Below, in pieces: positions 15,412 to 36,816 of a stretch of DNA of 48,493 bases. How positions within the stretch are numbered: the stretch's first letter is position 1; every line of letters starts with the position of its first letter. Made by a program: the position numbers and the translations under genes. This stretch comes from Gammaproteobacteria bacterium (GTDB lineage: Bacteria; Pseudomonadota; Gammaproteobacteria; Steroidobacterales; GCA-2729495): positions 1 to 48,493 of the forward strand of contig JAJFJS010000099.1 of NCBI GenBank assembly GCA_021773815.1, written 5' to 3'. The notes beneath the pieces were generated by a model, which saw nothing but the letters and a program-made list of their open reading frames with translations, did not search any database and was not told the origin of the DNA.

Positions 15412-15722
15412 ATGACGGTTGGAAGCGGCCTGCGCCCCGTTTCGAGTTGGCCTTTGGCATCGGGCTGATACCGCCATTGTGACTGCCTGATGGCGTCACC
15501 ACCTAGTGGCGCAAATGGTGGATGGTCGGACTCGGGCTACGGTGTATTAACTCGATGATTTTTCGCTTGAATTTACCCCGGTCAATCGCGAGGTTCTGCT
15601 CGTCTGGAGACCAATCGGCCGCTTGATCCCCGGTGGGTCGCCGCGTATGTTTACGAGTTGCATTTGCCGCCGTTGCGGGCGTTCGGAGGTTGTTCGCAGT
15701 GATAAGAATAAATGGGGGAGTC
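15412..15722. other. Intergenic region upstream of a large Ig-like surface protein
   Basis: About 310 bases with no gene. No riboswitch signature like the one at 28130 was found here. AT-rich stretches near 15536-15580 and 15695-15713 (GTGATAAGAATAAAT) are candidates for promoter and leader sequence. Confidence 0.4.
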
Positions 15723-19135: not shown

Positions 19136-21040
19136 TTAGTCTTTCCGGCGGCGTCGGCTGCGAAGCAGCGGAAGGCCGGCCAGCAGGCTCAGCAGGCTGG
19201 CAGGAGTGATGGCGCTGGAGCCGGGCAGGCTGTCCTGCGTCGGGATCGTGACGGCCGGGCCGGTCATCGTGATCGTCGCCGTGTTGCTCGCCGCGCTGCC
19301 GTCACCGTCGGTCAGATCCACCGTCAGCACGTCGGGTCCGGCAAAGCCGTCCGGCGTGTAGGTGAAATCGACTGTGCCCGCGGTGCCGTTCACGGTCGGG
19401 TTCGAGACCGTGCCAAACTGAGGTGTCGATACGCTGACCGAGTGATCGCTCGCGGCACCGTTGCCGGCCGTGAACGGCAGGGAGACCGTCGTCGCGCCCG
19501 GGGCTGAGATCGTCTGACTGGCTGCCGTTAATGTCGGCACGACATCCGGGATCGACAATGAGATCGTGCCGGTGGCCGCCTCGCCGTCGGCATCCGTGAT
19601 CGTGTAGCCGACGGCATCGCCTGCACTCGTGAAGGCCGAGGCGGCGATCGTGATGGTCGCGCCAACTACCGTCGAGGTGACGTCGTTGGACGGTGTCGTC
19701 GTGACGACCGCGGTGGCGTCGCCAACGGCGTTACCCGCGATGGCGCCGCCCGCGCCGACATTGACCGTCGTGGTCGCAGCGGCCGGGCTGATGCCCTGCG
19801 TGTCGAGCGTGATGCCGGCAAGATCGCCGGCGACCGGCAGTGCATTGTTGACCTGGACCGTGACGACGGCCGTGTCGCTGGCTGCAACGTTGTCGGTGAC
19901 CTGGTACGTGAATGTGTCCTGATAGGCGGCGCTGCCCAGCGGCGCCGTCGATGTGTACGTGATCGTGATATTGGCCAGCGGTCCGCCGTTACCCGTGATC
20001 GTCGTTGTGCCCTGGGTCGGCGCGACGGTTACCGCCACCGAGGACGGATCGGAAAAGCCGAAGTCGTTGGTGCCTACTGGTATTACGACGGGCGCGCGCA
20101 GGCGTGTGGTCGCGGCGTTGTCATCGGTCGCGCCGAGCGGCGAGACATTGACGGTCAGCGTCGCCGTGTCGGTCTGCCCGGACAGCGGGCCTGCTGCGTC
20201 GGTGACCCGGTAGACCCAGGTCTCGGTGCCCGTGAAAGCCGGGCTCGGCGGCACGTAGGTCACCGTGACATTGCCCGGTGAGCCGACCGTGCCCGAGTTA
20301 TTGATTGTGAATGAGCCGCCTTGGCTGCCCGCAGTCTCTTCGATGACTGTCGCACCGGGCGGGCTAACGGTGCCGGTATTCCAGTGCAAGTCGTTGGCAC
20401 CGATCGGGAAATCCACGGTCGCCGTGCCCTGGGGAATGTTGCCGACGTCATCGACGGCGTCGCCGGGTTTTTGCAGCGTGTAGGTGTAGCCGGATACGCC
20501 CGGGATCGCGTTCGAGACGATGAGTTTCGTTCCATCAAAGCTGCTGACACTGAAACCATCGTTCTGGTCGATATTCTGCTGCGTGCCGATGGCCATGTCG
20601 TCGCCGCCGAGGGTTCGTGAGAACGCAAGGCCCGGACCCCAGCTCGTCGAGCTGTCATTCGTGTAGTTGGCGCCGAAGTTGTAGTTGCCGCAGATCGAGG
20701 CGCCGACGTAGCCACCGAAGAGGCCTTCAATACAGGTGTAGTCCGTCGCCGTCGCCGTACCGGAACCGGTCACGTCGATGATGAAGCCGTTGATCACATG
20801 GCGAAAAATCGGGTTCACGGCGACGTTGTACTGCGCGTCATAGGCGCTGCCGGCCGTCAGCGTCTGTGCGACGTCGTCATAGGTCCAGTCGTTGCCGTTG
20901 ATATTCAGTACCGGCGTCGATTGACCGCTGCTGCTTTCGCTGACGACGCCGGTGAGCTTGAGCGTGTGCGTTGCCGCATCCGCGGCGCTCGTTGCGGAAA
21001 TCGCGGCTGCGACGGCCAGTGCGATGGGAGATTTCTTCAT
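19136..21040 (-). CDS. Secreted Ig-like module protein with two-cysteine N-terminal domain
   Basis: 634 residues. MKKSPIALAVAAAISATSA starts a signal peptide that ends near residue 22. Residues ~23-200 hold the shared domain: CIEGLFGGYVGASICGNYNF, then NYTNDSSTSWGPGLAFSR and LGGDDMAIGTQ. About four Ig-like modules follow (SGQTDTATLTVNV, FTYQVTDNVAASDTA, ITLDTQGISP, VLTVDLTDGDGSA). The C-terminus LPGSSAITPASLLSLLAG...RSRRRRKD is a hydrophobic segment plus arginines, a sorting-signal arrangement. It probably sits on the cell surface or outer membrane. Its ATG overlaps the stop of the upstream gene by four bases (ATGA), so the two are translationally coupled. The first 45 residues closely match the small protein at 28286. 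Function beyond structure is unknown. Confidence 0.85.
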   Translation of the reverse strand: MKKSPIALAVAAAISATSAADAATHTLKLTGVVSESSSGQSTPVLNINGNDWTYDDVAQTLTAGSAYDAQYNVAVNPIFRHVINGFIIDVTGSGTATATDYTCIEGLFGGYVGASICGNYNFGANYTNDSSTSWGPGLAFSRTLGGDDMAIGTQQNIDQNDGFSVSSFDGTKLIVSNAIPGVSGYTYTLQKPGDAVDDVGNIPQGTATVDFPIGANDLHWNTGTVSPPGATVIEETAGSQGGSFTINNSGTVGSPGNVTVTYVPPSPAFTGTETWVYRVTDAAGPLSGQTDTATLTVNVSPLGATDDNAATTRLRAPVVIPVGTNDFGFSDPSSVAVTVAPTQGTTTITGNGGPLANITITYTSTAPLGSAAYQDTFTYQVTDNVAASDTAVVTVQVNNALPVAGDLAGITLDTQGISPAAATTTVNVGAGGAIAGNAVGDATAVVTTTPSNDVTSTVVGATITIAASAFTSAGDAVGYTITDADGEAATGTISLSIPDVVPTLTAASQTISAPGATTVSLPFTAGNGAASDHSVSVSTPQFGTVSNPTVNGTAGTVDFTYTPDGFAGPDVLTVDLTDGDGSAASNTATITMTGPAVTIPTQDSLPGSSAITPASLLSLLAGLPLLRSRRRRKD

Positions 21041-23852: not shown

Positions 23853-25610
23853 TTACCAGTCAGGGTCGGGATAGCCATAGGTATTGACCAAAGCGCGAAC
23901 GTGGTGGGCATGGGGCTGCAGAAACTCCCGATAGTGCTGCCACTTGAAGCGTGAGGACTGATACAGGGGCCGGATAACCTGCGACCGGGAAGGCGTGTTG
24001 ATCAGCTTCTCTCTGTTTACCGCGTGAAACGACCGATACGAGTCATCGGGTCGAATGCCCAGGAACTCGAATACCCCGGTCACGGTGCGTTCGAAGTCTT
24101 CGACCAGATCCTCGTAACGCACGACATGCAGTTCGAGATTGAGTTCATCGCGGAATCGTTCAAACAGCGTCATAACATCCCGGTATCGGCTGAAGCATCC
24201 CTCGAGGCTCGTGAAGAATGCCATTTCGTTATTCAGTAGAAAGTCCTGCTGAAAGCAGCTCAGGCAGACATCAAGGGGATGGCGCAGCGATAGAATATAT
24301 CGTGCATCCGGAAACAGCAGTCGAATCAGCGGCAGGTGCATGATATTCAACGGCAGCTTGTCGATGACGACCGTACAGTCTTCCGTATTTTCGAGGTAAT
24401 TTTTCGTCGTGGCCGCGTACAACTCCCGGAGGTCAGCTGTCTGTTCCCGCGTCAGTGCTGATAGTCCGGCCGGGTAGGTCAGCCCGATCCGCTCGATTGC
24501 TTTGCGAATTTCCAGCAGCGTGTCGACTTCGCTGAGCGTTGATACTTGCGGCTGTGTGTCGAGAATGGTTTCCAGCAGCGTCGTGCCGGAACGGGGGAAC
24601 GCCACCATGAATACGTGCCGACAGGACATCGGCTCATCGCCGGGGAATGACGGTAGATCGTCAAGCGCTACATCACGCCAGGCCTGCACCGACTCCGACT
24701 GGTCCGCAGGCGCGTACATGCGCCGCGCAACGCCATTCATCTGCCGGAAGCTCTCGAAGGCTTCGGCATATTTGCCGATTTCTTCCAGCGCTTTCCCCCG
24801 GTAATAAAAGAGACGCCTGGCAACAGCCGGCTCCGGGCAGCCGGCGGCGATGTCTTGTGTCGCGATGTCCAGCACGCCCTGGGTGTTTCTTGTCTCAAAA
24901 TACACCTGCGCCTGCAGTTCCCGCAGTAACTCGTCATTGATTTGCTGTTCGTGGCAATGATCCAGCAGTTCCTGCGCCGGCTCGAAGGCGCGGAACTGCA
25001 CGTACAGGCTGAGCAGCCAGAGCAATTGGCGCTTGTCGAGCCGTGCGAGGCTGGATCGTGCCTGGCCCAGGTGCGCGAGACCCTGCGGCCTGTTGCCGAG
25101 TTGCTGATGTGCCGCCGCCAGCCAGAGCTGTGCTTCCGGCGAGAATTCGGGAATGGCGGCCAGTCGGGCCGCTTGCGCCATCAGTCCATCGATATTGCCG
25201 ATCGTCTGGTAGCAATTGCATAGCTTGATGATTGTGCCGGCATTTTCCGCGGTGGCGTCCAGTGCGATCGATCGTTCGAGGACACCGGCCATCCGCGCCA
25301 GATCGTCCTGCGATATCCGGTCCTTGTGCTGCAGGTAGATCAGGTCACTGATGCGATTGAGGATGCGCACCTTGTCTGCCGGTTGCGTGGCATGCGCTTC
25401 CGCGGCTTCAAAGGCGCTTGCTGCCTCGCCGTATCGTTGCCGTGCCTCGAGCACGTAGGCGTATCGCAACAGGGTGTCCAGATTCCTGCGCGCGGGCTTG
25501 CGATTGATCGCCTCGAGCAGCGTTTGAGCACGTGACAGGTCGCGGTTGCGAATCGCCGCGTCCACCTGCTCCAGTGATTCTTCTGTGTCGGTCACTTGGC
25601 CCTCCCGCAT
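23853..25610 (-). CDS. TPR-domain sulfotransferase
   Basis: 585 residues. The first ~300 are TPR-like helical repeats (LLRYAYVLEARQRYGEAASA, QLWLAAAHQQLGNRPQGLAH). The C-terminal part is a sulfotransferase of the Sulfotransfer_3 type: VAFPRSGTTLLETIL near residue 337 binds the 5'-phosphosulfate of PAPS, and ILSLRHPLDVCLSCFQQDF near 440 binds the 3'-phosphate. No signal peptide is present. It should transfer sulfate from PAPS to a protein or glycan presented through the TPRs. The ATG at 25610 is followed by a GTG at 25595 with GGGAGG just upstream, so the true start may be that GTG. A second member lies at 35261-36613. It is followed upstream by a methyltransferase gene on the same strand, 321 bases away. 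Confidence 0.9.
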   Translation of the reverse strand: MREGQVTDTEESLEQVDAAIRNRDLSRAQTLLEAINRKPARRNLDTLLRYAYVLEARQRYGEAASAFEAAEAHATQPADKVRILNRISDLIYLQHKDRISQDDLARMAGVLERSIALDATAENAGTIIKLCNCYQTIGNIDGLMAQAARLAAIPEFSPEAQLWLAAAHQQLGNRPQGLAHLGQARSSLARLDKRQLLWLLSLYVQFRAFEPAQELLDHCHEQQINDELLRELQAQVYFETRNTQGVLDIATQDIAAGCPEPAVARRLFYYRGKALEEIGKYAEAFESFRQMNGVARRMYAPADQSESVQAWRDVALDDLPSFPGDEPMSCRHVFMVAFPRSGTTLLETILDTQPQVSTLSEVDTLLEIRKAIERIGLTYPAGLSALTREQTADLRELYAATTKNYLENTEDCTVVIDKLPLNIMHLPLIRLLFPDARYILSLRHPLDVCLSCFQQDFLLNNEMAFFTSLEGCFSRYRDVMTLFERFRDELNLELHVVRYEDLVEDFERTVTGVFEFLGIRPDDSYRSFHAVNREKLINTPSRSQVIRPLYQSSRFKWQHYREFLQPHAHHVRALVNTYGYPDPDW

Positions 25611-25931
25611 CCTCAGACCGCCGGTTCCTTATACCAGAATGCGTGTCCACCGATAGTCGGCACGTCGGCCGGCCGCTTTGACACGTCGGCGGCGATGTTC
25701 GCGCGTGCGGCCTGTTGCGCCCGATCCCGAATGTTGCGAGCGGCGCAAAGCCGTCCGACAGACTGTCGGCTCGATGCAGCGATGGCTTTACGTGACCTCC
25801 CGTGTCGGTTTATCGCGGCATGGCTTCACGCCGTCCAGGCGAATCGGCCGGATGACCGCATATACCCCGCCTTTCCTGTCGACGATTGAGGACGGACTGG
25901 CCGTCAGGGCCGCACCCGACGCACGTTGGGG
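25611..25931. other. Intergenic region upstream of the TPR-sulfotransferase
   Basis: 321 bases with no gene. It contains a perfect palindrome, CCGACAG-A-CTGTCGG, at 25755-25769, which could be a regulator site for the sulfotransferase gene. No clear promoter boxes were found. Confidence 0.4.
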
Positions 25932-27725
25932 TCAGGCTCCGGCCGGATTCAGCGGCTGTGCAAAGAACTGGTACATCCCGGTAAACAGTCTCGGTTCCTT
26001 TTCCTCGACTTCCTGCCAGGCGCTCAGGTCGTAAGGATTTCCTGTACCGCCCAGCAGGTTGAATCGATGGATTTCGGTCGGCGAGAAAGTCAGGAACTCC
26101 AGCTCGTTGTCGCGCAGAATTTGAACCAGCTCCGGAATTGTGTATTGGCTTTCCTGCTCATGCAGGATCAGGTCCCGGCAACCGCTGACCGAGAAGAAAT
26201 CCCGAAATTCCATGATCCGGCGGTACCGGGCGAAGCTGTCGTCGGTAAGAAATCGATGCCGCAATTCGCGAATCGCGTCGGCGTCCCAGCTCTTGCCCAG
26301 ACGTGAATGCTCGCGACGAAATGCAATAATCGTTTGCCTGGCCAATTGGCTGTAGTAGCCGAGCCGGATGATGCCGTCGGCCCGCAGGAACTTGCGCAGG
26401 ATTGCCAGTCCCGCATTCGGATCCTGCAGATGATGCAGTACACCGATGCTTTCGATGATGTCGAAGCGGTCCTCCGGCTCACCCAATGTCGTTTCATCAA
26501 GGGCCAGAATATCGGCCTGCAGGAATTTGATATTCCGGATGCCCAGCCGCTCGGCCATCATTCTGGCGTATGCCAGACTGGCGGCGCTGATATCGATTGC
26601 GGTGATCTCCAGCCAGGGAAAGGTGATGGCATGCGAGATCGGGTGCCAACCGGTGCCGCAACCGGCTACGAGCATGCGGCGAAACGGATTGCCGGATTGC
26701 GGGTGCCACGCGGGGCAACGGGTCAGGGAAAAGAATTCCGGGTATGGCAAGGCTTGTGTGTTGGTGTTCCATTCCGGCGTGACCCAGCGCGGATAGGGGT
26801 TCTCCGTATACATCCGGGCGACGGCCCTGGAGGTGTCGTCGGTGAGTCCGGCGCTCTCGCTGAACTCACGGGAATAGTGTTTCAGGACCTGCCGTTCCGT
26901 CAGGTCGGCGTCGATGAAGTCGGCCAGTACCGGCAGATTGGCGGGTACGCAGGATTTCAGCGTCGCACCGGTGATGGGCAGTTCCCCGGGCGCCCGATAC
27001 ATGAGTGTGCCGAGGAGCAGGGGCAGCGCCTTGTTTGTCGCGGGACGGTCGTTGGCGCACAGAGTGGTCAGCCGTGATGCCATCTGATCGAGAATCGTCG
27101 CCTCGTCGGCCCCGATATAGAATGCATATTCATTTCGTCTACCCTGGGCGGCTAATGAGACGGCCAGTTCCGATAGGTCCCGGAAAGATTCCGGATCGGC
27201 CTGCAGCAAGAACAGCATTTGTTTCCTGAGGTCCGTGCACAGTAACTCCGCGCCGGGAGACACAATCCAGAAATTGCGCAGTACCGCGTGGATCAACCGA
27301 GAGTGATCGCATGCGGCCAACGGTGACGGCTCCAGCTGCGCGCCGGCGATCTTATGCTGCAGGAGCATGTGAACGAGTTCATTGATCGGCATGCAATCGA
27401 TACCGGGGCAGGCCAGGATGCGACAGACCTCGGCTTCCACCTCGGCACTGATGTCGATGTTTCGCAGACCTTGCATGATCGCGACGATCTGGAAGGTCAC
27501 CTGGGGCTGTTGCTTGAATGGCGTCGATAAGGTCAGCGATATTGCGAATGCCCGTTCAAAATCCTGTGTTTGCGCAAAGTTGATCATCTTCTGATGCAGC
27601 AGGCGGTCGTCGCCCGGGTGCGTGGTCAACATTGCGTCCAATTGCGCGTTGGCCGCCTCGAATTGACCTTTGGCTAGCAGCTCGTGCTGGGTGACAAAGA
27701 ATTCATCGGGAGTCTTGGGGGTCAT
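25932..27725 (-). CDS. SAM-dependent methyltransferase with long helical N-terminal region
   Basis: 597 residues, ATG at 27725 with AAAGGG upstream. Residues ~1-270 are helical and repeat-like (FFVTQHELLAKGQFEAANAQ), suggesting TPR-type binding repeats. YTENPYPRWV near residue 300 is typical of this methyltransferase subgroup. Motif I is MLVAGCGTGWHPISHA near 348, followed by ITAIDIS and VLHHLQDPNAG near 428. The last ~150 residues include RLGYYSQLARQ and may shape the acceptor site. The acceptor is unknown; a protein or glycan bound by the N-terminal repeats is the obvious guess. No signal peptide. It is on the same strand as the TPR-sulfotransferase downstream and shares its architecture (repeat plus transferase). 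Confidence 0.85.
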   Translation of the reverse strand: MTPKTPDEFFVTQHELLAKGQFEAANAQLDAMLTTHPGDDRLLHQKMINFAQTQDFERAFAISLTLSTPFKQQPQVTFQIVAIMQGLRNIDISAEVEAEVCRILACPGIDCMPINELVHMLLQHKIAGAQLEPSPLAACDHSRLIHAVLRNFWIVSPGAELLCTDLRKQMLFLLQADPESFRDLSELAVSLAAQGRRNEYAFYIGADEATILDQMASRLTTLCANDRPATNKALPLLLGTLMYRAPGELPITGATLKSCVPANLPVLADFIDADLTERQVLKHYSREFSESAGLTDDTSRAVARMYTENPYPRWVTPEWNTNTQALPYPEFFSLTRCPAWHPQSGNPFRRMLVAGCGTGWHPISHAITFPWLEITAIDISAASLAYARMMAERLGIRNIKFLQADILALDETTLGEPEDRFDIIESIGVLHHLQDPNAGLAILRKFLRADGIIRLGYYSQLARQTIIAFRREHSRLGKSWDADAIRELRHRFLTDDSFARYRRIMEFRDFFSVSGCRDLILHEQESQYTIPELVQILRDNELEFLTFSPTEIHRFNLLGGTGNPYDLSAWQEVEEKEPRLFTGMYQFFAQPLNPAGA

Positions 27726-28084
27726 TATTTTCGGCCCTTTCCGTCGCCGGTAGCGAAAGTGAAAAAATTGCTCGATGCCGGACCTAGCCGTCAGGCGTTT
27801 TCGCCACCGATAGTGGCGAAGCGAAAATCATAGCCCCTTTCGTCGCGGCGTCGCCTGCTGCGGATCGATCGACGATGGATGGCGGGCCCGCAAATGACTG
27901 CAGAGTGGTCGTTCCGGCAAGAGGCGGCTGATGGATTGGCGACCTGACGGCAGCTGTGTGGTGACTGCGGTTCACCGGACCCCTAAAGAGAATGAATTAA
28001 GTCGATGTTTGCCGGACAGAATATCGCCCATACTGCGGTACGGCGAAAATAGAGGTAAATCCCGCGCTTATGTCAACTTGAGGC
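27726..28084. other. Divergent intergenic region with a perfect hairpin
   Basis: No gene is supported here. TTCGCCAC at 27800-27807 pairs exactly with GTGGCGAA at 27813-27820, with flanking GCGTTTT and GCGAAAA extending the symmetry. It lies in the leader or promoter region of the minus-strand methyltransferase gene and may be an operator or RNA hairpin. The region also separates that gene from the riboswitch-controlled gene. Confidence 0.45.
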
Positions 28085-28112
28085 TTGCCCTCGGCCGTGC
28101 ATCGGGTATAGT
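28085..28112 (+). promoter_or_regulatory. Predicted promoter of the c-di-GMP riboswitch mRNA
   Basis: TTGCCC at 28085-28090 and TATAGT at 28107-28112 are spaced by 16 bases. The start of transcription would fall near 28119, about ten bases before the first helix of the riboswitch, as expected for its leader. Confidence 0.6.
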
Positions 28113-28129
28113 CGGGACGTCCGAAAAAG

Positions 28130-28242
28130 AAGGAAAGGGCACTCCAGGCGCAAGCCTGGTTCGCAAAGCCACGGGTCTTGCTACTCAGGCTGCATCGCAG
28201 TCGGGAGCGAATAGGGGAAGACAGCCGGGCTACAACCTCCTT
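28130..28242 (+). promoter_or_regulatory. Cyclic di-GMP-I (GEMM-I) riboswitch
   Basis: All landmarks of the GEMM-I aptamer are present in order. P1 forms from AAGGA (28130-28134) and TCCTT (28238-28242). P2 is CCAGGC-GCAA-GCCTGG (28144-28159) with the GNRA tetraloop that docks in P3. The invariant CGCAAAGCC is at 28162-28170. P3 closes with GTCTT (28175-28179) and AAGAC (28218-28222), followed by the conserved CAGCCGGG (28222-28229). GEMM-I RNAs bind c-di-GMP and control motility, biofilm and surface genes. The controlled gene is the small surface protein at 28286, 43 bases downstream. Confidence 0.95.
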
Positions 28243-28276
28243 GAAAAAGACATGTCAATTCGAAAATCTTTGGAGG
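28236..28276 (+). promoter_or_regulatory. Expression platform: anti-Shine-Dalgarno overlapping P1
   Basis: CCTCC (28236-28240) is complementary to the ribosome binding site GGAGG (28272-28276), and AAAGA (28246-28250) pairs with TCTTT (28267-28271) in the same hairpin. CCTCC overlaps the 3' strand of aptamer helix P1. Ligand-stabilised P1 would therefore free the ribosome binding site, so c-di-GMP is predicted to turn translation on. This is inference from base pairing only. Confidence 0.6.
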
Positions 28277-28285
28277 ATTATTTCA

Positions 28286-28915
28286 ATGAAGAAATCTGCA
28301 ATTGCCTTGGCAGTCGCGACGGCCATGGGGGCGTCCGCTGCGAATGCGGCGGCGTGGAATCTAACCACCTATATCACAAAGTCGAGTAACGGCCAGAGTG
28401 CAGGTGTACTGGCTGGTGACACCAGCTTTGTGACCGGCGTCGGCAACAGCCTCGTCTCGAACGGTGCATTCAGCGCCGCGTTTTCCGTTGGCGTGACGCC
28501 GCTGATGACGCAAGCCTGGGGCGCCGGCACGACGATGTCGGGTGGCGGTACCGTATCGGGTTCTTTCAACTGTCTGGAAGGTCTTTTCGGCGGATACGTG
28601 GGTGCCAGCATCTGTGGTAACTACAATTTCGGCGGCAACTACGCCAACGAGTCGACCGTCAATACCGACGGTAGCAATCGTGTGATTGGTGGTGACGATA
28701 TGTCCATCGGGCCTGCGCAGTCGGTCGCGGACTTCACCGGGTTTGCTCCGGTATTTCCGGATTCCGATTTCGTGACGACGATCCGGCTCGAAAGCGGTAC
28801 GGCGAATTCCGGCAATATCTGGGAGTTCACGGCAGTTCCGGTTCCGGCAGCCGCATGGTTGTTCGGTTCGGCACTCGGCCTGCTCGGCTGGGCACGCCGT
28901 CGCACGACTTCCTGA
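28286..28915 (+). CDS. Small exosortase-type surface protein with shared two-cysteine domain
   Basis: 209 residues from the ATG at 28286 with GGAGG at 28272-28276. MKKSAIALAVATAMGASAAN is a signal peptide ending about residue 22. The core (about 90-165) has CLEGLFGGYVGASICGNYNF, NYANESTVNTDG and VIGGDDMSIG, nearly identical to the protein at 19136 and related to that at 15723. The C-terminus VPVPAAAWLFGSALGLLGWA plus RRR is a PEP-CTERM/VPLPA-type sorting signal, cut by an exosortase before export to the outer surface. There are no Ig-like modules. The gene is under the c-di-GMP riboswitch and ends in a strong terminator, so it forms its own unit. A biofilm-matrix or surface role is likely (inference); biochemical function is unknown. 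Confidence 0.9.
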   Translation: MKKSAIALAVATAMGASAANAAAWNLTTYITKSSNGQSAGVLAGDTSFVTGVGNSLVSNGAFSAAFSVGVTPLMTQAWGAGTTMSGGGTVSGSFNCLEGLFGGYVGASICGNYNFGGNYANESTVNTDGSNRVIGGDDMSIGPAQSVADFTGFAPVFPDSDFVTTIRLESGTANSGNIWEFTAVPVPAAAWLFGSALGLLGWARRRTTS

Positions 28916-28969: not shown

Positions 28970-28997
28970 AACCCCGCCCTCGGCGGGGTTTTTTTTT
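28970..28997 (+). terminator. Strong Rho-independent terminator
   Basis: AACCCCGCC (28970-28978) pairs with GGCGGGGTT (28982-28990) around a CTC loop, and nine T residues end at 28997. It terminates the riboswitch-controlled gene. Confidence 0.95.
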
Positions 28998-29267: not shown

Positions 29268-31652
29268 GTGTTGGCGAGATCAGTTGCCCTGCTTTGCGTT
29301 ATTGCGTTGCTTGCCGCCTGCAGTTCGCCGGAGGATCGGGTCGCGAGTTATCTCGATAAGGCGAGGCAACTGTTCGACGAGGGCCAGTATGTCGAGGCCC
29401 GGATCGAGGCCCGCAACGCGGTCCAGATCCGACCCAAAAACGCCCAGGCGCGTCTGCTGCTGGCGGAATTGGCGTTGGAACAGAAAGCTTATGTCGCTGC
29501 GCTGAACCATCTGAAGATCGCTGTGGAAACCGAACCCGAGCTGCTGGATGCCCGCTTGTCGCTGGGGTTCCTGTATTACTATGGGCGGGCCCTTGAGGAA
29601 CTGTCCGAACAGGTCGAGATTGCGAACCGGTTGGCGCCCCAGGATCCCCGCGTATTGCTGATGAATGCCCGGTTGCTCGAGGCCAGGGGCGACAAGACTG
29701 CTGCGCTCGACAAGCTGGACAAATCCTTGCGCGCCGACCCGTCGAGTGCACAGGCGATTGGCTTCATGGCGTCGCTCGCCGCCGAATTACAGGGCGAGGA
29801 TGCGGGTATCGCCGTCATCAATGGGTATCTCGGAGCGGTTGCGGCCGATGAGGTTGAGACGTTGCGCGCCCTGAAAGCCGTCTTCCTCAGCAATGCGGGG
29901 CGTGATGATGAGGTCGAGGCCGAGATTCGGCAACTCGCGGCCGATTATCCAGATAATGAACGTTATCCCGAGGCGTTGACCCGGTACTATGTTGCCGAAG
30001 GTCGCGTCGAGGACGCGGAACAGGTCTTGCGTGACGTGATCCGCCGGGACCAGGCGGATGTCGGGCGCCAGATCGACCTGATTCAGTTTCTCGCGGGGCA
30101 GCGTGACAGCGAATCGGCGGAGGCCGCGCTCAAGGATTTTATCCGCAACTCCCCCGACTCTCCGGAGTTGCGGCTGACGCTTGGCCAACTCTATGATTCC
30201 GAAGGACGTCTGGATGATGCGATCGTCGAGTACGAGCGCACTATTGCGATGGCGCCCGGCAGCAACGAGAGCTTTGTCGCACAAAATCGCATTGTTTCGG
30301 TGCTCGCGCGCCGCGGCAAATCCGACGCAGCGCGTGCGCTGGTGGAACGGATCCTCGCCGAGCGGCCGGACGATGAGGGGGCTCTGCTGGCGCGCGCGGC
30401 GTTCAATATGGCCTCGGGCCACTACCAGGACGTGATTGCCGATGCGCGTGTGATCGTGCGCAAGAACCCGGCGTCGGAGGATGGCCGGATCATGATGGCC
30501 CGTGTGCATCAGGCGCTGGGTGAAACCTTGCTGGCACAGGACGCCTATCGTTCGGTGCTGGACGATAATCCCACGAGTGCGCCCGCGGCGACGGGCCTGG
30601 CTACCCTGCTGGTCGAGGGCGGCAAACCCGGCGAAGCGCTGGCCGTACTCGAACCCGTGACGCAGTCTGAACAGACCGATGTGGCGGCGCTCGAGGTGCT
30701 GGCAGTGGCGTTAACGGCTCTCGGGGATCTGGAAGCGGCGGAAAATGCGGCTCGGCGCATCGTCGAGTCAGATTCGGGCTCGGGAAGCGGTGACTACCAA
30801 TTTGGCCGGATTGCAGAGACGCGCGGCGATATCAATGAGGCGATCAGCTTCTACAAGCGTGCCCTGCAGAAGGATCCTGCCTTGCTGGCTGCGTTGCAGG
30901 CTTTGGTGTCGGTCAGCCTGTCCGGCGGTCGGTCCAACGAGGCGATCGAAGCGTCGCAGCAGTTCATCGCCGATAATCCCGACCAGTCTGGTGCCCGGCT
31001 GCTGCTGGCCAGCGCGTACCTGCAGGCGGGCCGGGCGTCCGCTGCCGAGCAGGAATTCAAGCAGCTGATTGCGGATGAGCCTGCGCTGCCGCAGGCCTAT
31101 GTCAATCTCGCGGCGGTCTATGATGATGACAGCGATCAACGATACGAGACATTGCGTCGCGGCTTACGGGCCAACCCGGAGGACTTGCGGCTCGGTATTT
31201 TGCTCGGGCTGGAGTATGAGCGCCACGGGCGTGTCGACGACGCCATCGCCGCCTACGAGGAGGCGATGGCGTTGAACCCGGACAATGCGCTGGTGCCCAA
31301 CAACCTGGCGATGCTGCTGCTGGACCACCGGTCCGATGAAAGCAACCTGGGCCGGGCGATGGAACTCTCCCGGCGTTTCGAGCGCAGCGACGAAGCCACG
31401 GAACTGGATACGCTGGGCTGGGCGTACTACCGCAACGGCGATTATCCCGCGGCGGTCAGGGTACTGGAGCGTGTCGTCGCATCGGTCGGCGAGGTCGCGG
31501 TCCTTCGCTACCATCTTGGCATGGCGTATCGCGCCGCGGGTAATCTGGTTCAGGCCGAGGCCGAACTTGCGCGCGCCGTGGCACTGGCCGATCAGCCGTT
31601 TACCGGTATCGAGGAGGCCAAGGTCGCGCTGGCAGAACTCAGAATCGAGTGA
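29268..31652 (+). CDS. prsT: PEP-CTERM-system TPR lipoprotein PrsT-like
   Basis: 794 residues from GTG at 29268 (AAGGAG just upstream; TTG at 29271 is possible). The N-terminus LLCVIALLAACSSPE is a lipoprotein signal with lipobox LAAC. RVASYLDKARQLFDEGQYVE is the characteristic opening of the TPR lipoproteins named PrsT in exosortase/PEP-CTERM genomes. The rest is continuous TPR (for example LRLTLGQLYDSEGRLDDAIV and ALNPDNALVPNNLAMLLLDH). PrsT is thought to act in export of exopolysaccharide or of sorted proteins, but its biochemistry is not established. It follows the riboswitch-controlled PEP-CTERM-like gene, separated by a terminator and a REP-like repeat. No exosortase or EPS genes are in the window. 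Confidence 0.85.
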   Translation: MLARSVALLCVIALLAACSSPEDRVASYLDKARQLFDEGQYVEARIEARNAVQIRPKNAQARLLLAELALEQKAYVAALNHLKIAVETEPELLDARLSLGFLYYYGRALEELSEQVEIANRLAPQDPRVLLMNARLLEARGDKTAALDKLDKSLRADPSSAQAIGFMASLAAELQGEDAGIAVINGYLGAVAADEVETLRALKAVFLSNAGRDDEVEAEIRQLAADYPDNERYPEALTRYYVAEGRVEDAEQVLRDVIRRDQADVGRQIDLIQFLAGQRDSESAEAALKDFIRNSPDSPELRLTLGQLYDSEGRLDDAIVEYERTIAMAPGSNESFVAQNRIVSVLARRGKSDAARALVERILAERPDDEGALLARAAFNMASGHYQDVIADARVIVRKNPASEDGRIMMARVHQALGETLLAQDAYRSVLDDNPTSAPAATGLATLLVEGGKPGEALAVLEPVTQSEQTDVAALEVLAVALTALGDLEAAENAARRIVESDSGSGSGDYQFGRIAETRGDINEAISFYKRALQKDPALLAALQALVSVSLSGGRSNEAIEASQQFIADNPDQSGARLLLASAYLQAGRASAAEQEFKQLIADEPALPQAYVNLAAVYDDDSDQRYETLRRGLRANPEDLRLGILLGLEYERHGRVDDAIAAYEEAMALNPDNALVPNNLAMLLLDHRSDESNLGRAMELSRRFERSDEATELDTLGWAYYRNGDYPAAVRVLERVVASVGEVAVLRYHLGMAYRAAGNLVQAEAELARAVALADQPFTGIEEAKVALAELRIE

Positions 31653-31748: not shown

Positions 31749-32234
31749 TCAGTGCTCGGAAGGTCGGTTTCCGACCAATTCCATGTCGTTACTCAACCCG
31801 GATACCATAGCGTCGAAATCGACCGGTCGAATCAGCAACGGCGGGAAGCCGCCCTTGCCGATGATCGACCAGATTGCTTCCCGGGTGAACGGAAACATCG
31901 AGGACGGACAGATCGAAGAGATCATGCTCTTGCGTTCGGCTTCGGAATATCCCTGGATCAGGAAGATGGCCCCCTGGTCGACTTCAATCAGGAATACGGT
32001 ACCGATGTCCGTGGTCGCAGTGATGGTTACGCTCAACACGATCTCATACTGATCGTTCGTCCTGTCTTTGCTGGTGATCTGCACATTCATGCTGAGCTGC
32101 GGTTCCGCAGCGGTCGTGAAAACGTCCGGAGAGTTCGGTGATTCGAAAGAGAGATCTTTCAAATAGACCTTCTGCATGGTGAAACGGCGCCCCTTGTCTC
32201 CGGAAGCGCCCATGCCTGCTGTGGTTTCGTTCAT
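31749..32234 (-). CDS. secB: SecB-family protein-export chaperone
   Basis: 161 residues. Family hallmarks are visible along the length: FTMQKVYLKDLSFESPNSPD (about 18-37), the beta strands FLIEVDQGAIFLIQ, CPSSMFPFTREAIWSIIGKG (about 109-128) and FPPLLIRPVDFDAMV (about 130-144). SecB binds unfolded precursors and delivers them to SecA; in some bacteria it also serves type I secretion. The C-terminal tail (ELVGNRPSEH) is short. The usual neighbours of a housekeeping secB (grxC, gpsA) are absent; instead it follows a methyltransferase gene by 83 bases on the same strand, inside a surface-modification region. It may be a second, dedicated copy (inference) or the only SecB. Confidence 0.9.
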   Translation of the reverse strand: MNETTAGMGASGDKGRRFTMQKVYLKDLSFESPNSPDVFTTAAEPQLSMNVQITSKDRTNDQYEIVLSVTITATTDIGTVFLIEVDQGAIFLIQGYSEAERKSMISSICPSSMFPFTREAIWSIIGKGGFPPLLIRPVDFDAMVSGLSNDMELVGNRPSEH

Positions 32235-32317
32235 ATTCAGTATCTGCCTGACGAAAAGAAGTGAAGTGTTTGCGGACTTCCGGCCGGGCCGGCCTGGCCG
32301 ATTTGAACCTTAGCAAA

Positions 32318-33292
32318 TTATGGCGCGCAACGCGCTGCGCTCAGTGCCGTGCCGATGTTTTTTTCTGCCTTGTATTCCAGTGTGAACATCCCGGTGATTT
32401 TCATGCCTTCGGTCTCCAGCAGCGCTACCAGGCGTTCGCGGCCGGACGCGGACAGAGCCGCGGCGCTGAGATCCTCGACTCGCCTGATATGCGCGATGAA
32501 TGCATCGCGCGCGCGCGTTATCAGCTTATTCCGCTCCGTGCGCGAGCGTTTTTTTGTCTGGTCGAAAGCCGAATTCAGGCGCCGGACGTACAGGTGCAGC
32601 GGAGAATTGCCGGGGTGGTGTCGTGCCATGTCGTCGACACGGCCGGATGCGTGCCGGATCTGCGCCATCAGAGTGTTGAATTCGGGTATCGTGGCCCGTC
32701 TGGCCGGATTCTTGTGTTTCTGGTACAGGCGGTCCATTTCGAAGGCCAGGTCATGCAGCCGGATTTCCTCGGCGACCCGCCGAAAATCGTCGAGATGTTC
32801 CGTGGCGCCCCTGATGATCGAGGACTCGCGGTCGTGAAGAATCAGGCCCAGCCGGCCCGTTGCCGCAAGCGTTCGACCGATCTCCGGGATGGCCTCTTCC
32901 GGGTTCGCATACTCCAGGCCGTACTGGCTGACGAACATATCGATGGAGTAGTCCGGGAATGGCAGCCGCTCGATCGGCGTGTTGCCAATAAAACGGATCG
33001 CGGGAAAATCTTCGGGCTTGCGCCCGAGCACCCTGAACGGAGAGATGTCCGCGAAGTCGACACCGGTAATTCTGGATTCGGCATCGTCCGCATTCAGGAT
33101 GTCGTTGCAGATCCAGGTCAGGGCGCCGTTACCGCAGGCCAGGTCGACGACGTGCGCCGGCTGTCCTTCAAGCTGTATACGCCAGAAATCCAGGATGGGT
33201 CCGTCATAATTGTCCGGAAACAGCTCGCCGAACGAGGTGATGCTCTGATTCTTCCAGAACGGCGACCAGTCTTGTGGGTCGAGCTTTTTCAT
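32318..33292 (-). CDS. Class I SAM-dependent methyltransferase
   Basis: 324 residues from the ATG at 33292. The ORF extends to a TTG at 33355, but the internal ATG matches the start of the conserved part (MKKLDPQDWSPFWKNQSITS). Motif I is VVDLACGNGALTW near residue 44. ITGVDFADISPF follows, and the SQYGLEYANPEEA segment occupies the post-motif-III position. A basic, helical C-terminal region includes KKRSRTERNKLITRARDAF. It is cytosolic, substrate unknown, and probably co-transcribed with the SecB gene. It is not closely similar to the other two methyltransferases in the window. Confidence 0.85.
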   Translation of the reverse strand: MKKLDPQDWSPFWKNQSITSFGELFPDNYDGPILDFWRIQLEGQPAHVVDLACGNGALTWICNDILNADDAESRITGVDFADISPFRVLGRKPEDFPAIRFIGNTPIERLPFPDYSIDMFVSQYGLEYANPEEAIPEIGRTLAATGRLGLILHDRESSIIRGATEHLDDFRRVAEEIRLHDLAFEMDRLYQKHKNPARRATIPEFNTLMAQIRHASGRVDDMARHHPGNSPLHLYVRRLNSAFDQTKKRSRTERNKLITRARDAFIAHIRRVEDLSAAALSASGRERLVALLETEGMKITGMFTLEYKAEKNIGTALSAARCAP

Positions 33293-33456
33293 GTCTAATC
33301 GCGCAACGGCCTGAAAGTGGGCAGCGGTGATTATAGCCTTCGGGCTTTCTGGCAAAATAACTGTGCATCCCGATCCGCCGGCGACCGCCTGTGCATGCGC
33401 TTCGGGGTCCTATCAACCGCGTGACGGCTTGACATAACGATGTATCGGAACCCGGC

Positions 33457-35226
33457 ATGACAGAACCAACCAGTTACCGGCGCGCACCGGGCCTGCGGGT
33501 GACCGCCGACGGTGCGGTCGTGATGCCCGGCGGTGCGGCTCGGCCGTTCTTCCCGACAGCCGCCCAGCAGCGCATCCTGCAGTCCTGTGCGTCATTCAAG
33601 ACGGCTCGTCAGCTCGCAACCGAGGCGCCCTTGTCGGGCAGCGATCTACGGGCACTGGCGGCTGCTGGCCTGCTCGAAACGGATCGAGCGATTATCGAGG
33701 CCTGCCTATTGCAGGCCGTGGCCGAGAAGCTGGCACCGATTGCCGACCTGGGGATACTGACGTGTGCATCGCCGCCACTATTGCGCCGCTCCGTGGAGTC
33801 GTGGCACAAATTGGCCCGGCACTGCGCTCGGGATGCGCGTTTCATTGTCGTAGATGACAGTCCGACGGAGTCGTTGGCTGCCGAACAGCGACAGGCGGCA
33901 CAGGGACTGGGTTCGGTCCTGGGTGCCGAGCTGCGCTTCGTCGACCCGCAAGCGCGCGCCGAGCTCGGGCGAGAGATTGCAGGCCTCGCCGGCGTCGACC
34001 CGGCGCTGCTGGAATTTGCTCTGGCCGGCCGCGAGCCGCCGAGAGTCGGCATCGGCGGCAACCGGAATGTTCTGAACCTGCTGACGCAGGGGCGCCGCCT
34101 CTTGAGTGCGGATGACGATGTCGTCGCGGAGTTTTCCGATGCCGTCGGCCGCATGGATGTGCTGTGGATTACCTCCGCGGATGTGCCGCTGGATACGTGG
34201 TTCTTCGATTCCATAGAGGAAATGCAGCAGCAGGCCAAACTCGGCCGGCATCAAGATCCGTTCCGGTTGCATGAATCGTTTGTGGGGCGTTCGGTCGGGG
34301 ATGTACTCGACGGCTTTAACGGCGACGTCAGCCTGGTCGGGGCGAGCCCGGCACTGACCGACGCCATGCGGAACGATACTGCGCGCATCGCCGTAAGCGC
34401 GCTGGGACTCGCCGGAGATGGGGCATCCGATTGCCTCGCATTCTTCAGCATGCTCGCGGCCGGCCAAACCAGGAACAGGCTCTTCGAGCGGCCGGATCCG
34501 ATGTCCGATAGTCGCGAGATCATGCGCCGGGCCGCGGGCCTCGCTCTCTGTCAGGGCGCCGGCCTGATGACTTTCTGCCACGCAACGGATAATTCACTGG
34601 CCTTGCCGCCGTATTTCCCGGTCGGACGGGGGGAAGACCAGGTGTGGCAGAAGCTGATTCACTGGAGCGACCCGGCGACACTGGTTGCGCATCTGCCGCT
34701 GGCGGTTTTGCACCGACCCGCAACGGCGCGTCGATATAGCGAACAGGATTTTATGAACCCCTTCGCGAAATTTCCGGGTAATGCTTTTTTGCTCGGTGCG
34801 ATCGAATCATGTGCGAAGCCATATATCGGGTTCAGCCCTGATCAGCGTCTTGACTGGCTGGGAGACTACTTTGAGTCAATCGCCGGTAGCTCGTCAGATT
34901 TTTCGGCACTCGTCGAGCAGGCATGGCGGGCGTATCTCGAGCATCATCGCGAACTGGTAGACACGGCGCTGGAGACGCAGAAAGATAGCCCCCGGTGGTG
35001 GGTCAGGCATATGATAGGGCTGGGAAAAACGCTTAAGAAACAAGTAGATGTCGGCGGCCCTATTCCTCTGGAATATGCTTCCTTGCAGCCCGCGGCCGCG
35101 GTCGAGGCATTGCGGATCGATGTCAGCAGGTTTTCAGAACTGCTGCGGGCATGGCCGGATATCCGGCGTGCTGCACGGGTATTTTCCGATCGACTGGTCG
35201 CGGATCCCGGCTGGATGAGTCCTTGA
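33457..35226 (+). CDS. Glycosyltransferase-like protein with winged-helix-like N-terminus
   Basis: 589 residues; I do not recognise a named family with certainty. Residues ~1-85 resemble a small PqqD/RRE-like winged helix (beta strands, then TAAQQRILQSCASFKTARQL and LRALAAAGLLETD). Residues ~95-430 look like a GT-A glycosyltransferase: LGILTCASPPLLRRSVESW, FIVVDDSPTE, GNRNVLNLLTQGRRLLSADD (acidic DxD-like site near 216), GRGEDQVWQKL near 391 and VLHRP near 417. The C-terminal ~120 residues are helical. No signal peptide. The combination suggests a sugar transferase that recognises a peptide or protein (inference). It lies between the SecB/methyltransferase pair and a divergent TPR-sulfotransferase. 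Confidence 0.65.
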   Translation: MTEPTSYRRAPGLRVTADGAVVMPGGAARPFFPTAAQQRILQSCASFKTARQLATEAPLSGSDLRALAAAGLLETDRAIIEACLLQAVAEKLAPIADLGILTCASPPLLRRSVESWHKLARHCARDARFIVVDDSPTESLAAEQRQAAQGLGSVLGAELRFVDPQARAELGREIAGLAGVDPALLEFALAGREPPRVGIGGNRNVLNLLTQGRRLLSADDDVVAEFSDAVGRMDVLWITSADVPLDTWFFDSIEEMQQQAKLGRHQDPFRLHESFVGRSVGDVLDGFNGDVSLVGASPALTDAMRNDTARIAVSALGLAGDGASDCLAFFSMLAAGQTRNRLFERPDPMSDSREIMRRAAGLALCQGAGLMTFCHATDNSLALPPYFPVGRGEDQVWQKLIHWSDPATLVAHLPLAVLHRPATARRYSEQDFMNPFAKFPGNAFLLGAIESCAKPYIGFSPDQRLDWLGDYFESIAGSSSDFSALVEQAWRAYLEHHRELVDTALETQKDSPRWWVRHMIGLGKTLKKQVDVGGPIPLEYASLQPAAAVEALRIDVSRFSELLRAWPDIRRAARVFSDRLVADPGWMSP

Positions 35227-35260
35227 GCCTGCGCGCCGGGAACCGGTCAGGATAGGGTCT

Positions 35261-36613
35261 TCATGTAGAAATCAGCGGCCCGAGATGTTGTCGGTAGTTC
35301 TTCCAACGACCGACCGACCCCTTGTATATCGGTTGGCGCACCTGATCCCGACTTGCCGTCATGACCACCCTGTCGGTGGCATGAAATGTCAGACATGCGG
35401 GTTCGAAATCCAGATCGCAGTGCGCGAGTAACGAACGAATATGACGTTCCGGATCGGAAACCAGATCTTCATATTGTATGGCGAAGACATCATCGGGCAG
35501 GCACTCGAGCCAATGTTCCGTCAGGTTGTCGAAGTAACCGTGGAATTTTCGAATCTGGTCGAGGTCATAGCTCCACGGGTATGCGCGGCCGAGATCTTTC
35601 TGAAAAACAGAGAGCCCCATGTCGCGGACGTCGCGCCGGCAAATAATGATCTTCGCGTCAGGCAGCATGATTTTGATCAGGCCGATAAAAAGATAATTGA
35701 ATATGCTCTTGTCGGTAACGTGAGGCCGGTTGCCGCCGAGAGATCTCAGTGAGGCGACATATTGGCTTGCGATTTTCTGAATTCCGGTCGGACCGAGCCG
35801 ATCGATATTATCGGGAAAGGCTTCATTGACTGAGTTTGTTCGGCTGACGCTGTTCACGATCGCCACGAGTTGCTGGATTTCTCCGCCGCCGAAAACTCGC
35901 GAATGGCTCGCCAGGATCTGCTCGACGAGCGTGGTTCCCGAGCGGGGCAGGCCCGTGATGATAATCGGTGTGTCGTCCGATATACCCGAATGCTCATGAC
36001 CTCTGAAGAATGCCGCATCCATACATTCTTGAATTCTCCGGTGGCTGACCTCCGCTGTCGCCATATCCATGGGCGCCATGTCGGTCGACGCGATTTGATT
36101 GCCTTCACGAAAAAAATCGAAGGCTCTGTCGTAGTGTTTCAGGTCGTCGAAAACCTTACCCAGTGCGAATGAGAGGCATCTTCGTGCCAGGCTGGTCGGT
36201 GCCGTTGTTTCGTAGGCTGCTTCCATTGCCCGAACGTCATCGTCGTGGTCTGAGTATCGGCAAGTCGTTGCCAGATCCATATATGTTTGGGGCATCGCCG
36301 CGGGATTCAGTGCTATACAGCGCCGATAACAGGCCTTTGCCTGGTCGAATTTCCCGAGGTTTTTGTAGGCAGTAGCGATCCGAATCAGGGTGGTGTGATC
36401 TGCTAACGCTTTCGTACAGGCCTGATCCAGGGCCTCGATTGCCAAATCAAATTTCTGCTGATGAATATAGACGGCGGCCAGGACGCTGGTGGCCGCAGCA
36501 TTGTCCGGGTCCAGCGCCAGGATTTGCCTGACAATGGCTTCGGCTTGATCGATTTGCCCGGACTGCATCTGCCGATGGGCCATCTGGAGACGGATGTCGA
36601 GTTGGGTCTGCAT
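35261..36613 (-). CDS. TPR-domain sulfotransferase
   Basis: 450 residues. The first ~150 are TPR units (MAHRQMQSGQIDQAEAIVRQ, LIRIATAYKNLGKFDQAKAC). The catalytic domain has ITGLPRSGTTLVEQILASHS near residue 221 (5'-phosphosulfate binding) and IIICRRDVRDMGLSVFQKDL near 319 (3'-phosphate binding), the Sulfotransfer_3 pattern using PAPS. No signal peptide. It is the second such enzyme in the window, with fewer TPRs than that at 23853. It is transcribed divergently from the TPR/OGT-like gene across a 200-base promoter region. The acceptor could be a surface protein or glycan; tyrosine sulfation is one of several possibilities. Confidence 0.9.
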   Translation of the reverse strand: MQTQLDIRLQMAHRQMQSGQIDQAEAIVRQILALDPDNAAATSVLAAVYIHQQKFDLAIEALDQACTKALADHTTLIRIATAYKNLGKFDQAKACYRRCIALNPAAMPQTYMDLATTCRYSDHDDDVRAMEAAYETTAPTSLARRCLSFALGKVFDDLKHYDRAFDFFREGNQIASTDMAPMDMATAEVSHRRIQECMDAAFFRGHEHSGISDDTPIIITGLPRSGTTLVEQILASHSRVFGGGEIQQLVAIVNSVSRTNSVNEAFPDNIDRLGPTGIQKIASQYVASLRSLGGNRPHVTDKSIFNYLFIGLIKIMLPDAKIIICRRDVRDMGLSVFQKDLGRAYPWSYDLDQIRKFHGYFDNLTEHWLECLPDDVFAIQYEDLVSDPERHIRSLLAHCDLDFEPACLTFHATDRVVMTASRDQVRQPIYKGSVGRWKNYRQHLGPLIST

Positions 36614-36658
36614 TCTCTGGTTTGTAATGGGCCGGTCGGGATAAATCGATGATGCGCG

Positions 36659-36678
36659 TATAATTTCAAAATATTATA
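36659..36678. promoter_or_regulatory. Divergent -10-like boxes
   Basis: A perfect TATAAT occurs on the plus strand (36659-36664) and another on the minus strand (36678-36673) in the AT-rich gap between two divergent genes. Neither has a good -35 match, so activator dependence is possible. Confidence 0.35.
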
Positions 36679-36816
36679 TCAAAGCGGTAAACAACCGAAT
36701 GAACTCGCGCGGCACAGTGCCGCCGGGGCGGGTCTGTGCCGCGGTTTTGGTGCCGGCGTTCCGGCGTTAGAGTCGTTTTTGGCAGCTATTTCCAGGAACT
36801 TGTCTGACACGATGTG

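Follow-up and report, generated by a model that had tools for sequence, protein, structure and literature searches.

The pairing of a riboswitch with a PEP-CTERM gene is as such already in print, since it is listed for Methylophaga nitratireducenticrescens GP59, in which Ribo4 to Ribo7 each flank a gene of the PEP-CTERM or VPLPA-CTERM type in the vicinity of exopolysaccharide genes; three of them are more abundant in biofilm, and Ribo5 shows the opposite (available part of PMC12530212). These pairs are presented there in a table of annotations together with relative transcript levels and are likened to the cassette described below by description only. In Aquincola tertiaricarbonis, prsT is preceded by the PEP-CTERM gene pepA, and a putative terminator stands between the two. 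Flocs require prsT; pepA depends on RpoN1, and its overexpression in an rpoN1 mutant lowered soluble and raised bound exopolysaccharide and did not restore biofilm formation, on which pepA had no effect, its role being in flocs (available part of PMC9850573). Vibrio cholerae shares with the present locus a c-di-GMP-I riboswitch, Vc1, which promotes gbpA at high c-di-GMP (PMC11218506 and PMC4744006, in the parts available), and a biofilm mutant of Geobacter shows changes in GEMM-I genes, gsu1945 and gsu1948 among them (PMC10599522, likewise in part). The switch-plus-tail cassette of the family studied here was not found reported in open-licence PMC papers. We know of no exosortase signal in GbpA.

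We analyzed a window of 48,493 bases (the whole stretch of DNA examined), which is contig C148 of a 3.87-Mb gammaproteobacterial genome in 149 contigs. An earlier note on this DNA had called a c-di-GMP-I (GEMM-I) riboswitch in the leader of a small secreted protein and suggested an Infernal/Rfam check. Results of cmscan bore out the call: the single Rfam match at the gathering threshold in the window was RF01051, c-di-GMP-I, which covered positions 1 to 87 of the 87-position model in full length at 51.6 bits against a gathering threshold of 35 (E 2.6e-07), and the landmarks that had been named (the GCAA-capped P2, CGCAAAGCC and CAGCCGGG) were all located. The locus comprises the following features, in window positions.

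28068 to 28076 (+): TTATGTCAA box, candidate activator site upstream of the promoter, at a constant distance from it
28085 to 28112 (+): sigma-70-like promoter, TTGCCC-N16-TATAGT
28128 to 28237 (+): c-di-GMP-I riboswitch aptamer, type-II-like, from the RF01051 match at 51.6 bits
28130 to 28134 (+): P1 5' strand AAGGA, partner TCCTT at 28238 to 28242, from the sequence and the forced-state fold
28138 (+): G, equivalent of the c-di-GMP contact Vc2 G20; G in 13 of 13 aligned aptamers
28144 to 28159 (+): P2 stem CCAGGC-GCAA-GCCTGG, GCAA loop at 28150 to 28153
28162 to 28170 (+): CGCAAAGCC landmark
28171 (+): A, equivalent of Vc2 A47; A in 11 of 13 aligned aptamers
28222 to 28229 (+): CAGCCGGG landmark
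28233 (+): C, equivalent of Vc2 C92; C in 12 of 13 aligned aptamers
28236 to 28240 (+): anti-Shine-Dalgarno CCTCC, overlapping the P1 3' strand and pairing with 28272 to 28276 in the ligand-free minimum-energy fold
28246 to 28250 (+): AAAGA, pairing with TCTTT at 28267 to 28271 as the second half of the sequestering hairpin in the minimum-energy fold
28272 to 28276 (+): Shine-Dalgarno (SD) GGAGG, well conserved in aligned relatives
28286 to 28915 (+): gene for a 209-aa secreted surface protein, ATG at 28286, stop ending at 28915
28835 to 28906 (+): VPVPA-type C-terminal sorting signal, membrane helix and RRR, residues 184 to 207
28972 to 28997 (+): intrinsic terminator CCCCGCC-CTC-GGCGGGG-TTTTTTTTT
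29268 to 31652 (+): PrsT-like TPR lipoprotein beyond the terminator, TIGR02917 at 266.8 bits

Aptamer fold and subtype

Among 13 aligned aptamers (the window and 12 relatives), 95.6% of the cells of the structure including P1 were paired, and both sides had changed in 13 of 21 pairs versus 6.2 in shuffles, a value reached by 0 of 500 shuffles, with counts of covariation that are inflated because the aligned aptamers are related. Compensatory changes were found in the P1, P2 and P3 helices; the three modelled P1 pairs vary on both sides in relatives, with 87.2% of their cells paired. An A at the place of Vc2 G20 would mark variants that sense 3',3'-cGAMP, and a change to this ligand was rejected, given the G found there in all 13 aptamers. 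G20, A47 and C92 are named as contact nucleotides of Vc2 (available part of PMC11218506), and the equivalents of all three are kept in the window aptamer.

Type I aptamers of this class have been described with a GNRA loop and a receptor, and type II aptamers with a GYRA loop and no receptor (PMC11218506, same part). The window aptamer has neither a GAAA loop nor the customary receptor letters; judged from the sequence alone, its GCAA loop reads as GYRA and also as GNRA, and its GGUC is followed by UUG, where 47 of 74 ordinary aptamers have UAA or UAC. By its loop and P3 letters, the aptamer fits the known type II subtype. Across the 19 genomes that carry the ectodomain of the target protein, RF01051 gave 95 matches, 94 of them above the cut-off; a CCGG-type P3 base occurred in 74 of the 94 (58 of the 74 with a GAAA loop) and another P3 base in the remaining 20, with 1 GAAA and 13 GYRA loops. 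The kind with the altered P3 base fits type II. A new aptamer variant was considered for the loop and receptor change and ruled out, the same having been described as type II (PMC11218506, same part). Most members of the subtype scored 35 to 55 bits with RF01051, versus 57.9 to 89 for the ordinary aptamers of the same genomes. With type II, the subtype shares the RF01051 fold, the contact equivalents, the GYRA loop in the window and the missing receptor letters, whereas it differs in a long P3 extension, which ends in AGGGGAAGA in the window and several relatives, and in having the GYRA loop in just 13 of the 20 aptamers with an altered P3 base.

The source genome holds seven c-di-GMP-I matches. 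One of them (L007, on contig C89) belongs to a second cassette, and from frame reading we take the targets of L001 to L005 to be a large secreted protein, an M23-type peptidase, a TlpA-like protein, PilM and a FAD-linked oxidase-like protein, respectively. As a separate observation, a class-A c-di-GMP-I riboswitch ∼235 to 315 nt before a frame of 353 to 358 aa recurs in the 19 ectodomain-bearing genomes (L004, L121-L123, L129-L132, L135, L136, L139, L141, L142, L144, L146 and L149); the frame is PilM by reading in L004, and the other loci are matched by length only.

Promoter and predicted switching

One sigma-70-like site was found between 27950 and 29350, where shuffles gave a mean of 0.6 (sd 0.8), so that the promoter match taken alone carries little weight. 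The -10 is conserved in most relatives and the aptamer begins 15 nt past it, and the -10/-35 pair that the earlier note had placed before the leader (TTGCCC-16-TATAGT) is present.

An ON switch at translation is most likely, because the P1 3' strand overlaps CCTCC, which is complementary to the SD GGAGG. In the ligand-free state, the CCTCC at the aptamer's end would pair with the SD and translation would be low; bound c-di-GMP would stabilize P1, which competes for the same strand, and so free the SD. Complementarity of the P1 3' strand or its extension to the SD, which is CCTCC/GGAGG in the window, takes the form ACCTCCTT/AAGGAGGT in G168:C39 and ATCTC/GAGAT in G177. In the folding model of the window, the unpaired probability of the SD rose from 0.03 in the free leader to 0.35 with the aptamer and P1 forced, in agreement with the anti-SD overlapping P1 and the translation turned on by c-di-GMP that had been predicted from this leader. 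Over 21 leaders the mean rose from 0.17 to 0.34, going up in 15, down in 2 (L086 and L217) and staying about equal in 4 (Wilcoxon p 0.0006, which is indicative only because the leader rows are related). The anti-SD strand beat composition-preserving shuffles at the 5% level in 9 of the 21 leaders (among them L093, for which the wrong SD was used), and the P1 strands did so in 11. P1 is short, with 3 to 6 pairs in the genus of the window, and forcing the aptamer together with P1 costs 5.6 kcal/mol in the window according to the model, with partial opening of the SD.

Two other readings of the leader have to be set against a translational ON switch. The leader might be a decayed or ligand-changed relative, blind to c-di-GMP and kept as a structured 5' untranslated region, as the low RF01051 scores of the subtype would suggest, together with a T at the place of C92 in G029, the missing A47 in G099 and G127, and a further diverged copy in G070 and G153, which scores 32.6 bits with R1 (a covariance model of the subtype built from 13 aptamers) and has no RF01051 match. 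However, compensatory change maintains the pairs, the window retains every ligand-contact equivalent, and the long P3 extension probably depresses the RF01051 score, and we hold such decay to be very improbable. The riboswitch might also be genuine yet act as an OFF switch, or chiefly via transcription or RNA stability and not ribosome access, which we regard as unlikely: several c-di-GMP-I mechanisms have been described, for instance the dual regulation by Bc1, the promotion of tfoY by Vc2 when c-di-GMP is low, and that of gbpA by Vc1 when it is high (available part of PMC11218506), and the SD stays partly paired under forced P1 in the model. This reading is opposed by the overlap of the P1 3' strand with the anti-SD and by the opening of the SD in 15 of 21 leaders, and no terminator-like hairpin was found between the aptamer and the start codon in the window.

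The surface protein and its neighbors

The 209-aa target protein consists of a signal peptide, an ectodomain with CxEGxFxxxVGAxxC and GGDD motifs, and an exosortase-type tail; the signal peptide MKKSAIALAV...ANAA and the tail VPVPAAAWLFGSALGLLGWARRR, both recognized by reading, give it the architecture of an exosortase substrate, with a C-terminal tail that reads VPVPAAAWLFGSALGLLGWARRRTTS. Since its scores lie below the curated cut-offs (20.7 of 25.35 bits for TIGR03370 and 14.9 of 20.7 bits for PF07589), we call the protein VPVPA-tailed or exosortase-type and do not file it under these models. The tail is clear by eye, which upholds the small secreted exosortase-type protein proposed behind the leader, and similar tails occur in 21 other targets, themselves picked by the tail pattern. 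Neither Pfam nor NCBIfam gave a convincing match for the ectodomain itself, the profile of which matched no PDB sequence at E up to 1, in accordance with the earlier description of a domain without a nameable function; an AlphaFold2 model of it from nine sequences had a mean pLDDT of 49. Exosortases are encoded in the source genome, namely, XrtD on contig C30 (TIGR04152, VPLPA-specific exosortase, 568.5 bits against a cut-off of 400) and XrtA (TIGR03109, 292.3 bits against 208). The product would be secreted and then sorted via its VPVPA tail, most likely by XrtD.

The second cassette, on C89, encodes a VPVPA-tailed protein of 223 aa that is 39% identical to that of the window, and a PrsT-like lipoprotein that is 45% identical to that of the window over the first 186 aa. 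Tail-like DNA matched 13 places in the source genome (the window, the C89 tail, the C89 riboswitch and 10 further places), and two more tailed genes lie on C18 and C147, so that the switch is carried by two of the dozen or more tailed genes. Elsewhere in the window, the genes at 19136 to 21040 (-) and 15633 to 18542 (+) encode larger secreted proteins that begin with the same ectodomain and continue with repeats and a different tail, and neither has an Rfam riboswitch match in front. A search of 396 genomes of the order with a four-copy alignment of the ectodomain found relatives in 19, every one of them from the family of the window; in genome records, the ectodomain was found at four loci, all from MAGs, three labelled Chromatiales bacterium and one Gammaproteobacteria bacterium.

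Of the 20 cassettes in which the gene end was found, 19 have a GC-rich hairpin and a T tract behind the gene, as counted by a purpose-made pattern with no shuffle control. The neighbor beyond it is called PrsT-like because its TIGR02917 score lies below the curated cut-off of 312.2 bits (266.8 in the window, 224.0 for the second copy). Of the 19 cassettes with more than 4 kb of downstream sequence, 13 have a same-strand PrsT-like frame no more than 7.4 kb further on, a count that includes the window, which supplied the query gene, and the twin pair G070/G153. An exosortase gene lies downstream in 6 of the 20 cassettes with at least 3.8 kb, and the three of these six that were scanned (L095, L093 and L214) are XrtD at 465 to 573 bits. 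Neither a PrsT-like gene nor an exosortase was found within L094, L096, L099 and L100, which have more than 4 kb downstream and in which no tailed gene was found. In L100 (G162:C175), frames ∼3.2 to 3.8 kb past the riboswitch translate to PSPRPWGT/VHPHARGEH-like repeats, which resemble a CRISPR array translated as protein.

Given these same-strand neighbors, the switch might govern the surface protein, XrtD and PrsT as one operon; yet the intrinsic terminator stands directly after the surface gene in nearly all cassettes, the window included, and in Aquincola, too, pepA and prsT are separated by a putative terminator (available part of PMC9850573), which makes a common operon quite improbable. 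The surface gene and the PrsT-like gene are neighbors that probably do not form one transcript, since the terminator separates them.

The arrangement is shared with Aquincola, in which a tailed gene also lies upstream of a prsT-type TPR lipoprotein gene with a putative terminator between; however, pepA has a -24/-12 RpoN promoter and a riboswitch is unmentioned in the available part of PMC9850573, whereas the window has a sigma-70-like promoter, the TTATGTNAA box and a c-di-GMP riboswitch. PepA homology was rejected for the target protein, which scores 22.9 bits against the cut-off of 80 of the PepA model NF033554, and the likeness would be one of function only. Weak matches to NF033554 occurred in three of ten other targets, wholly or largely via the tail in L213 and L095 and over residues 230 to 356 in L214. 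Beside a PrsT-like lipoprotein, the product probably acts like PepA, holding exopolysaccharide at the cell. The candidate biofilm or surface component of the earlier note is better framed as a PepA-like protein beside a prsT-like gene, an arrangement that flocculation depends on in Aquincola, where the role found was in flocs and not biofilm (PMC9850573, in the part available). Around the PrsT-like gene (23853 to 27725 and 31749 to 38907) lie genes for SecB, a sulfotransferase-type TPR protein and two methyltransferase-domain proteins. From reading, the same flanks presumably also hold TPR sulfotransferase- and glycosyltransferase-like genes. This neighborhood suggests surface modification.

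Recurrence in the family and its meaning

Searching 396 genomes of the order with R1, with 8 first-look candidates scored per genome, revealed 21 matches of at least 78 bits, all in the family of the window, the next best being 74.8 bits in other families. All 20 assessable matches precede a protein with a VPVPA-type tail, the 21st (G168:C39) ending at a contig end and being left out. Eight of the 20 were not in R1 (two in G147 and one each in G159, G119, G177, G015, G111 and G153, the last nearly identical to G070), and in G147, G159, G119, G177, G015 and G111 the order-wide search found no relative of the window ectodomain. Tailed proteins also follow the matches in G077 (69.6 bits) and G171:C121 (67.0 bits). 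Among the best 11 matches outside the family (L170-L175 and L178-L182), L170, L171, L172, L174, L175 and L180 have a complete first frame without a tail, the frames of L173, L178 and L181 run off the locus, and none is listed for L179 and L182. In a sample of the class, 60 of 369 genomes matched R1 at E up to 0.001, and none of the nine listed loci (of 28 new ones) was tailed, L184, L185 and L188 having no listed frame. Below 78 bits, R1 fails to separate tailed from untailed targets; L097 (64.8 bits) and L094 (47.4) were not assignable, L096 (51.2) has no tail and L098 (49.1) has one.

Counted by RF01051 in the 19 ectodomain-bearing genomes, matches below 57 bits gave 14 tailed, 1 untailed (L096) and 3 not assignable targets, one of the last being a match below the RF01051 cut-off, and those of at least 57 bits gave 5 tailed (raw), 60 untailed and 12 not assignable ones, a tally that is biased when taken alone because presence of the ectodomain was the criterion for selecting these genomes. 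Four of the five raw tails are spurious short frames (L054, L055, L056 and L145), and the fifth is L098. L140 (VPEPA), flagged by a looser pattern, was ruled out as a tailed target, as its end reads VPEPALREEIARLLAE with no sorting tail. With the signal peptide and tail removed, the 22 targets, which were found by the tail pattern, fell into eight groups in BLASTP with composition correction, stable from E 1e-3 to 1e-8; without L098, the middles form seven groups with no detectable similarity between them. The leader and tail are conserved and the middle is exchanged. This family-wide cassette with different ectodomains goes beyond the earlier note, which had one window.

A near-palindromic TTATGTNAA box lies upstream of the promoter. 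Among the 22 leaders with at least 60 nt of upstream sequence, TATGTNA starts 36 to 39 nt upstream of the -10 in 16 and at -48 in one more, and it is absent in five. The pattern TTATGTNA-N29-32-TATANT had 39 matches in 40 genomes of the family and 3 when read backwards, whereas a gap of 17 to 20 gave 5 matches but 15 for the reversed pattern, so that chance is not negligible for AT-rich patterns of this kind. Riboswitch leaders account for 14 of the 39 matches (13 with a verified tail and one at a contig end), and 10 precede other tailed proteins (G119:C122, G070, G153, G000:C18, G000:C147, G029, G156, G150, G107 and G041), the box also falling inside another long frame in G156 and G150. In the twin genomes G070 and G153, the diverged riboswitch copy follows the box and precedes a second tailed gene (L241, 1385 to 1497 on the minus strand, and L254, 1549 to 1661 on the plus strand; R1 E 9.6e-9, no RF01051 match at E up to 1); the other eight loci had no R1 match at E up to 0.1. 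The remaining 15 matches have no tailed protein or are not assignable. By reading, we take 4 of them to precede polyphosphate-kinase-like genes (L249-L252, in G183, G015, G177 and G052), three of these sites holding TGTCATAAAGT, presumably a coincidence with a Pho box, and 2 to lie upstream of a carboxy-terminal-protease-like gene (G147:C49 and G099:C68); 9 others complete the 15. At its fixed distance from the -10, the box marks many tailed genes of the family (L230-L262), also ones without a riboswitch. The cassette has the box in common with further tailed genes, and a regulator at the box probably helps the promoter.

Overall, the locus is best read as a surface-protein cassette that is monocistronic and under the control of c-di-GMP, a model that we consider fairly probable as a whole: a sigma-70-like promoter, probably with a regulator at the TTATGTNAA box, would start an RNA whose leader is a type-II-like riboswitch. 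The observation made in the earlier note is confirmed, and its interpretation was largely right on mechanism, partly supported overall and overrated in novelty. More tentatively, and with perhaps somewhat less than an even chance of being right, the family may possess a frame of TTATGTNAA box, promoter, riboswitch, VPVPA tail and terminator that holds interchangeable ectodomains, in which the regulator at the box picks the proteins and c-di-GMP, sensed by the RNA, sets the amount of those mostly encoded beside PrsT or XrtD. If so, there would be a dedicated regulon of tailed surface proteins, with seven or eight ectodomain groups so far that show no detectable similarity, and the surface coat would be swapped between species while the command line is kept.

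Such a cassette would link the main biofilm second messenger, via RNA, to exosortase-type surface proteins, RpoN control having been described in an experimental study of such a gene (available part of PMC9850573). It offers testable functions for domains without their own Pfam or NCBIfam match, and the promoter box can be used to find its regulator. Since the leader and tail are conserved and the middle is exchanged, the leader can be used to find surface-matrix proteins of uncultured bacteria, and the recurrence of the switch-plus-tail cassette with different middles suggests that c-di-GMP commands how these bacteria coat their surface.
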